Source: Synechococcaceae cyanobacterium SM2_3_2
Lineage (GTDB): Bacteria > Cyanobacteriota > Cyanobacteriia > Thermostichales > Thermostichaceae
NCBI GenBank assembly: GCA_012031565.1
Contig: JAAUUM010000007.1
Location: forward strand, 1 to 46,232
DNA length: 46,232 nt
Direction: 5' to 3'
Below are positions 1,408 to 3,087 of this stretch, in pieces (the stretch's first letter is position 1; each line of letters starts with the position of its first letter). The notes under the pieces are model-generated. The model had not been told where the DNA came from, searched no databases, and was given only the letters and a program-made list of their open reading frames with translations. The position numbers were made by a program, and so were the translations under genes.

Positions 1408-3087
1408 ATGCGTAGCTGGAAAAAATACATACCCTGGGCTGTCATTCTGCTGGTGCTGGTGGGCATCGGGTATGTGGTCGGCCCCCGGCTCAGCCCCGAA
1501 GAACCCTTGGGGTTGGTGGATGGGCAACAGACGTTACAGACCCTGGATCCGCTGCCCCAACACCCTCAGATCAAGGTCTATCTCAACCAATCTCAGGCCA
1601 ACACCTACACGGATCCCTATCGCCAGATCTATCGCCATGGGGACAATCTGGAGCAATTCATCCTCGATCAGATTGACTCCGCCCAGCAGTCTATCGACAT
1701 GGCAATCCAAGAATTAAACCTGCCCCTGATCGCCCAAGCCCTGGCCCAAAAACAAGCCGCCGGGATCCCAGTGCGGGTGATCACTGAAAACACCTACGTT
1801 CGACCTTGGGATCAGATCGCCACCGCCCCAACCGAGGATCCGGATATACCCGAACTCTCAGAACGAGAAGCCGTCAAAGTCGAGGAATATATTGCCCTGA
1901 TCGATGTCAATCGGGACGGAGAGTTAGATCCCGACGAGATCGCCAGCCGTGATGTCTACCAGATCATGGACAACGCCGGGATCCCGTGGCTCGACGATAC
2001 CGCAGATGGCTCGGCGGGCAGCGGCCTGATGCACCACAAATTTATCCTGATCGACGGCCAAAAGCTGGTGACGGGATCCGCCAATTTCACCCTGTCAGAT
2101 ATTCACGGGGACTTTGGCGAAGATCTAAGTCGGGGCAACGCCAATCACATGCTGCTGATCGCCAGCTCCCAAGTGGCGGGCGTCTTTGCCCAAGAATTTG
2201 ACCTGATGTGGGGGGATGGCCCCGGTGGACAGCCAGATAGTTTATTTGGTGTCCAAAAGCCCGAACGCCCTATCCAAACGGTGCAGGTGGGAAACGCCAC
2301 AGTGGGGATCCATTTTTCCCCCGCCAGCCACTCGCTACCCTATGCAGACACCAGCAATGGGGCCATTGTGGCAACCCTTCAGCAAGCCCAACAGAGTGCC
2401 GCCCTGGCTTTGTTTGTCTTTACCGACTCCGGCATCGCCAACAAGCTACACCGGATGCACCACGACCGCAATGTGACGATTCGGGGGGTGTTTGATCCCG
2501 GTTTTGCCTATCGAGACTACAGTCGCACCCTGGATTTATGGGGGGTGACCCCGCTGGAGGATGGTTGCCTACTGGATCCTGACCGTCAGATCTGGAGTGA
2601 CCCGATCATCGACAGCATCGGGATCCCACAGCTCCACAGCACCGACAAGCTGCACCACAAATTTGGCCTGCTGGATGCGGACAGCCCCCAAGCCACTCTG
2701 ATCACGGGATCCCACAATTGGTCAGTTGCCGCCAATCACAGCAACGATGAGGCTCTGCTGATCATTCAAGATCCCGTCGTGGCCGCCCATCTGGAGCGCG
2801 AGTTTGAGCGATTGATCGTCTCCGCCCGCTTTGGCCCCTCCCGCAGCCTCAGCGAACGAACCCAGGCTCAAGCCACCGCCTGCCCCAATCCGATTTTGGC
2901 GGGATCCCAGCTGATCAACCTCAACACCGCTTCTGTGGAGGAATTGACCCAATTACCGGGCATCGGCCCCACCCTAGCCGAGCGCATTGTTGCCGCCCGC
3001 CCCTTCTCTTCTCTCGAAGACCTGGATCGGGTCAACGGCATTGGCCCCAGCCGCATCGCCGCCATCCAAGAGCGGGTGGAATGGTGA
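1408..3087 (+). CDS. Membrane-anchored phospholipase D-fold protein with EF-hand and C-terminal helix-hairpin-helix
   Basis: 559 residues. Residues 8-25 form one hydrophobic segment with no clear cleavage site, suggesting a membrane anchor with the rest outside the cytoplasm. Two PLD half-sites follow. The first is HHKFILID (about 209-216) with GSANFT after it; the second is HHKFGLLD (about 416-423) with GSHNWS after it. Both keep His, Lys and Asp, so an active HKD enzyme acting on a phosphodiester (lipid or nucleic acid) is expected. Inserted in the first half is an EF-hand-like loop, DVNRDGELDPDE (166-177), that could bind calcium. Residues 503-556 are a ComEA-like double helix-hairpin-helix (LNTASVEELTQLPGIG, then VNGIGPSRIAAI), a non-specific DNA-binding module. 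The combination suggests an envelope nuclease rather than a lipase, but that is inference. Start ATG follows a GAGAGGGATCCCC stretch that may serve as the ribosome site. Confidence 0.85.
   Translation: MRSWKKYIPWAVILLVLVGIGYVVGPRLSPEEPLGLVDGQQTLQTLDPLPQHPQIKVYLNQSQANTYTDPYRQIYRHGDNLEQFILDQIDSAQQSIDMAIQELNLPLIAQALAQKQAAGIPVRVITENTYVRPWDQIATAPTEDPDIPELSEREAVKVEEYIALIDVNRDGELDPDEIASRDVYQIMDNAGIPWLDDTADGSAGSGLMHHKFILIDGQKLVTGSANFTLSDIHGDFGEDLSRGNANHMLLIASSQVAGVFAQEFDLMWGDGPGGQPDSLFGVQKPERPIQTVQVGNATVGIHFSPASHSLPYADTSNGAIVATLQQAQQSAALALFVFTDSGIANKLHRMHHDRNVTIRGVFDPGFAYRDYSRTLDLWGVTPLEDGCLLDPDRQIWSDPIIDSIGIPQLHSTDKLHHKFGLLDADSPQATLITGSHNWSVAANHSNDEALLIIQDPVVAAHLEREFERLIVSARFGPSRSLSERTQAQATACPNPILAGSQLINLNTASVEELTQLPGIGPTLAERIVAARPFSSLEDLDRVNGIGPSRIAAIQERVEW

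Follow-up and report, generated by a model that had tools for sequence, protein, structure and literature searches.

In Bacillus subtilis and related bacteria, one strand of incoming DNA is degraded by the metallo-beta-lactamase domain of ComEC, as described jointly with the nucleases EndA and NucT in PMC8579336, PMC12455585, PMC5031224, and PMC5714352. Where this domain is degenerate, as in Streptococcus pneumoniae, the membrane-bound EndA degrades one strand (PMC8579336, PMC5031224), and in Helicobacter pylori, whose ComEC lacks the domain, the periplasmic, membrane-associated phospholipase D (PLD) nuclease NucT is implicated in transformation (PMC5714352, PMC12455585). The nuclease that makes single-stranded DNA in cyanobacterial transformation has been described as poorly understood (PMC7690421). 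ComA of Synechocystis sp. PCC 6803 (Slr0197, also called ComEA) is membrane anchored, periplasmic, and needed for transformation (PMC7690421, PMC10667661); slr0197 knockouts are non-transformable (PMC10667661; cited in PMC7690835), and a 1999 prediction already gave ComA DNA-binding and endonuclease domains (via PMC7690421). Cyanobacterial ComA appears to be membrane anchored, resembling the Gram-positive form (PMC6567925), and an RB-TnSeq study applies the name comEA to a gene of S. elongatus (PMC7125226).

The window analyzed here is a stretch of 46,232 nucleotides from Synechococcaceae cyanobacterium SM2_3_2 (contig JAAUUM010000007.1), and all features described below lie on its forward strand. 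A comA-like gene at 1408 to 3087 encodes 559 amino acids plus a stop, with a single in-frame start downstream of the preceding stop; its product consists of an N-terminal anchor, a first PLD half with an EF-hand insert, a second PLD half, and a helix-hairpin-helix (HhH) tail. No second full copy was found in a search of the organism's own genome. The protein is almost certainly the local ortholog of Synechocystis ComA, judging from its homologs in that genus, which match at E values of 1e-142 to 1e-149, with one match per genome and about 44 to 49% identity, and which carry the assignment to slr0197 with high confidence. Synechocystis sp. PCC 7338 (G076, identified through a plasmid match of 100%) has one full homolog (L068) with all features, including the EF-hand and tail, while its other listed small HhH open reading frame (ORF) of 182 codons is shorter than the slr0197 ORF, which spans at least 844 bp (PMC10667661); from these two facts we infer orthology. 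The original prediction had proposed a calcium-gated nuclease at the cell envelope; an envelope nuclease with calcium binding is supported by the sequence comparisons, but the known ComA family had gone unrecognized. The protein is thus a member of an established family whose requirement for transformation has been shown for slr0197, and a literature search for the architecture by name returned nothing but an unrelated match. What goes beyond the literature found is the conservation of the calcium loop, the lability of the tail, a cysteine pair, and a reciprocal pattern with the ComEC nuclease motif. Directly upstream of the gene, at 741 to 1346, lies a Uma2/DUF820-like gene (named by eye), which is not a conserved neighbor in the families compared. 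The palindrome GGGATCCC occurs at 78 sites across the whole window versus 2.8 expected and is apparently a HIP1-like over-represented octamer of the lineage.

Homologs were gathered by genome-wide searches, and 85 were aligned. Pfam PLDc_2 matches the window protein twice (E = 1.2e-37), and the chain contains two copies of HxK(x)4D(x)6GSxN, the signature by which PLD superfamily nucleases are recognized. The first (H209-K211-D216 ... G223-S224-A-N226; 2032 to 2085) has the exact spacing, reading H209-x-K211-x4-D216-x6-GSAN, and its H, K, and D are invariant in 85/85 homologs; in the second (H416-K418-D423 ... G434-S435-H-N437; 2653 to 2718), the spacer between D and GS is longer in the window protein, and the motif H416-x-K418-x4-D423...GSHN is intact in 84 of the 85, the sole exception being a truncated ORF. 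The two intact HKD sites claimed at the outset are therefore borne out, and a check of domain order finds both motifs and the calcium loop widespread in homologs of the Cyanobacteriia, with the HhH tail in 39/85. One homolog is broken in two: in G062, an N-terminal part (L093) and a part with the second HKD motif and HhH (L152) are separated by about 53 kb of the same contig.

AlphaFold2 models built from five sequences fold into two PLD halves, the EF helix-loop-helix preceding the first HKD motif, at a mean pLDDT of 70.9, which is moderate confidence; the structure prediction called for with the original prediction thus places the loop between two helices ahead of that motif. In Foldseek searches, the best PDB matches are the mammalian lysosomal single-stranded DNA (ssDNA) exonucleases PLD3 and PLD4, followed by other PLDs, including bacterial ones. 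PLD3 and PLD4, the nearest solved folds, are likewise anchored, have two HKD motifs per chain, and act on ssDNA outside the cytosol, but they are only 12 to 16% identical, lack an EF-hand and HhH, and have no part in competence. Since the fold also matches lipid-acting PLDs, which counts against a nuclease role, and since two HKD motifs in one chain are the usual layout of lipid PLDs, with bacterial PLDs among the fold matches, the alternative of an envelope enzyme acting on lipids, a phospholipase D or transphosphatidylase, has to be weighed; however, nucleases are the best fold matches, the core's closest PDB sequence matches are the mitoPLD/Zucchini group, 39 of the 85 members carry an HhH tail, and the distribution tracks that of ComEC, and we regard a lipid substrate as quite improbable. 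NucT is among the nearest curated sequence models, but the window protein is not a member of the NucT equivalog (52.8 bits against a cutoff of 297 in NCBIfam); NucT is a short protein that has a single PLD domain, lacks both EF-hand and HhH, and affects transformation only modestly. EndA is an unrelated metal-finger nuclease whose active site differs and which lacks a DNA-binding tail. A weak NCBIfam match to the PLD nuclease DrmC of the DISARM anti-phage system (41.7 bits) falls far under the cutoff of 133, so that the protein is not a member; with no DISARM genes seen adjacent, near-universal occurrence in the class, and an envelope anchor, a DrmC-like defense function has almost nothing to recommend it.

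The EF-hand helix-loop-helix lies at 1861 to 1977, with its 12-residue loop, DVNRDGELDPDE, at residues 166 to 177 (1903 to 1938). Pfam EF-hand models match residues 158 to 178 weakly and under their cutoff (E = 0.017 to 0.057). Among loop-bearing homologs, however, position 1 is D in 74, position 3 is N or D in 75, position 5 is D or N in 75, and position 12 is E in 75, whereas positions 2, 4, 7, and 10 vary freely; because the ligand positions are conserved while those in between vary, we take the loop to be genuine despite its Pfam score. In the AlphaFold2 model, the DxDxDG loop sits between helices at 152 to 165 and 175 to 190, the layout of an EF-hand. The loop is canonical in 74/85 homologs, absent by deletion in 10, and degenerate in 1 (G320), which upholds the claim of a calcium loop within the first PLD half, before the first HKD motif; this strong conservation also supports the predicted calcium binding. 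Parsimony places 4 changes of the loop on the tree, read as about four losses, and by this pattern the putative calcium loop is real and old. The passages on cyanobacterial ComA found in the literature mention neither the EF-hand loop nor the cysteine pair.

As to what calcium might do, a catalytic role is unlikely by analogy, because NucT is cation independent and its assays contain EDTA; since NucT is active in EDTA, calcium would act structurally or allosterically. A gating role, as originally proposed, is conjectural, and about four lineages retain the enzyme after losing the loop. We give an even chance to the reading that keeps the nuclease role and makes the EF-hand a structural staple, in which periplasmic calcium would always be bound and the enzyme would be constitutive, without regulation. 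The cation independence of NucT (PMC5714352) and the clean deletion of the loop in several clades that retain both HKD motifs favor such a staple, and the strong constraint on the ligand positions across the class, the point to set against it, is compatible with a staple or a switch alike.

The tail is a C-terminal HhH pair at residues 501 to 557 (2908 to 3078), where Pfam HHH_3 matches at E = 2.5e-17 (63.2 bits against a cutoff of 27). Profile searches put it closer to ComEA (TIGR01259, E = 4.4e-12) than to PsbU (E = 2.4e-7); the TIGR01259 score of 46 bits is under that model's full-length cutoff of 152. A pair of the ComEA type, as originally proposed, is thus confirmed. ComEA of Bacillus, Vibrio, and Thermus shares the C-terminal HhH pair but has no nuclease domain, whereas in the window protein the pair is joined to such a domain, and HhH is missing from many of the fusion's relatives; the small ComEA layout of anchor and HhH only is not matched by 559 amino acids with PLD domains. 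The tail is present in 39 of 85 homolog ORFs and absent in many other lineages, and it is not universal, as shown by tailless members that include S. elongatus PCC 11801 (G036, named from a 100% plasmid match). It is not missing from homologs with the same anchor: transmembrane-anchored relatives carry it in the window's own family, in the genus Synechocystis, and in family f19. Parsimony counts at least 17 state changes of the tail, which makes it labile; the tree was a quick one built without loop and tail, with SH-aLRT support only and many open forks, tails were scored as present in G062 (split copy) and G374 (frameshifted copy), and such counts alone cannot separate gain from loss. Because the loop changes rarely and the tail often, the conserved unit is the two-HKD enzyme with its calcium loop, and the tail is an accessory.

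Candidates for a split ComEA in tailless lineages were considered and rejected: an HhH protein of about 180 to 200 amino acids, without signal or anchor, reads as a cytosolic family, one of about 143 amino acids is PsbU-like, and matches of about 720 amino acids are, presumably and by length only, Tex. The protein of about 180 to 200 amino acids (L151, L154, L157 to L160) is conserved and widespread in cyanobacteria and could pass for ComEA. Tails hidden behind a frameshift account for one case only (G374). A tailless, EF-positive homolog with 40% identity was also seen on a Bacteriovoracales MAG contig (L035), by lateral transfer or mis-binning.

At the N terminus (1408 to 1482), two lysines are followed by about 17 hydrophobic residues with no lipobox cysteine, modeled as a helix at residues 4 to 24; this bears out the claim of membrane anchoring, and the segment is predicted to be a transmembrane helix or an uncleaved signal. 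A hydrophobic anchor without lipobox cysteine is found in the window's family, the genus Synechocystis, and family f19. Most homologs are probably lipoproteins, because 65 have a cysteine at the lipobox position (43 with the regular lipobox pattern). Cys387 (2566 to 2568) and its predicted disulfide partner Cys492 (2881 to 2883), the sole other cysteine of the protein, are both present in 82/85 homologs, a pattern that would fit an extracytoplasmic disulfide.

A ComA homolog is present in 153 of the Cyanobacteriia genomes sampled, and the family extends through nearly the whole class. ComA and ComEC are found together in 151 class genomes, ComA only in 2, ComEC only in 4, and neither in at least 19; many of the last belong to one picocyanobacterial family (f20), so that Fisher p-values overstate independence. 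Further joint absences are seen in f6 (G147, G183) and f21 (G111, G123). Two of the ComEC-only genomes (G051, G157) have a full-length ComEC with no ComA detected; in the other two, one ORF is just 333 amino acids and one starts 92 bases from the contig start. G051 and G157, like the two genomes with ComA in which no ComEC was detected, count against the link between the two proteins. This pattern indicates that the ComA family is lost together with ComEC. Damaged-looking comEC genes were also seen, with an internal TAA in G286 (L231) and the 333-amino-acid ORF in G264 (L232), where comA is undetected too. The organism's own genome encodes ComEC, a secretin, and DprA. No conserved operon with competence genes was found around comA homologs; the commonest specific neighbor is a divergent cysteine-desulfurase-like gene (21 loci).

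The C-terminal H-x-[DHG]-x-D-H motif of ComEC is present in 0/42 Cyanobacteriia sequences (L162 to L173, L204 to L233), of which those of G286, G264, and G326 are incomplete and the own-genome copy is cut at its N terminus by the contig end, versus 20/30 outside the class; in the aligned region of class ComEC, the metal motif is replaced. Pfam Lactamase_B is likewise absent from 4/4 class ComEC proteins tested and present in 3/3 outside. That cyanobacterial ComEC is without the domain was already known, since a published survey describes it as mainly DUF4131 plus Competence (PMC6299819); the present comparison adds how relatives differ and the connection to ComA. The pattern has its limit: outside the class, the metal motif is also missing from 10 of the 30 ComEC proteins, yet none of these is accompanied by a ComA of the present type. 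Outside the class, 14/30 comEC loci have a ComEA-like ORF no more than about 1.5 kb away, compared with 0/42 inside. Some genomes outside the class have double-PLD relatives, and neither EF-hand nor HhH was found in those of f32, f35, and f36. Since cyanobacterial ComEC lacks its usual nuclease part, incoming DNA is probably cut by ComA, which would have taken over strand processing from ComEC. The match to ComA/Slr0197, the co-occurrence with ComEC, and the loss of the ComEC nuclease motif give good support to the proposal that an envelope nuclease acts on incoming DNA.

The same distribution bears on whether ComA might instead scavenge DNA at the envelope for nutrient or phosphorus recovery, with only an indirect role in transformation. 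H. pylori NucT is implicated in purine salvage (PMC5714352), and a pstB-like gene (read by eye) lies near the comA-like gene in the window; however, loss of slr0197 abolishes transformation (PMC10667661), comA and ComEC are jointly absent in several lineages, and no phosphate-gene neighborhood is conserved at the loci compared, which together make scavenging unlikely.

Our preferred reading, which we consider likely, is that the window protein, as an ortholog of ComA, is an anchored periplasmic PLD superfamily nuclease, working within the DNA-uptake machinery of the type IV pilus, with an EF-hand predicted to bind calcium. DNA entering via PilQ would be bound by the HhH tail in those members that have one, and cleaved at the single-chain active site formed by the two HKD motifs; the resulting strand degradation or nicking would allow one strand through ComEC. 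Calcium would bind to the EF-hand of the first PLD half on the outer side of the cytoplasmic membrane, where it most likely stabilizes or positions that half of the active site. The cyanobacterial ancestor may have combined a PLD protein with an EF-hand and a tail of the ComEA type as the nuclease of ComEC disappeared; many later losses of the tail would have followed. A stronger version, in which a calcium-controlled ComA, with its inserted EF-hand and fused ComEA-type tail, replaced the metal-dependent nuclease of ComEC in oxygenic cyanobacteria and made uptake depend on periplasmic calcium, is a tentative proposal that we think doubtful as a whole.

For cyanobacterial transformation, these findings name a candidate for the strand-processing nuclease, with H209, H416, D166, and E177 as the residues of interest. 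Natural variants without the loop or without the tail are available as a comparison set, and the candidate may bear on improved transformation of cyanobacterial laboratory strains.
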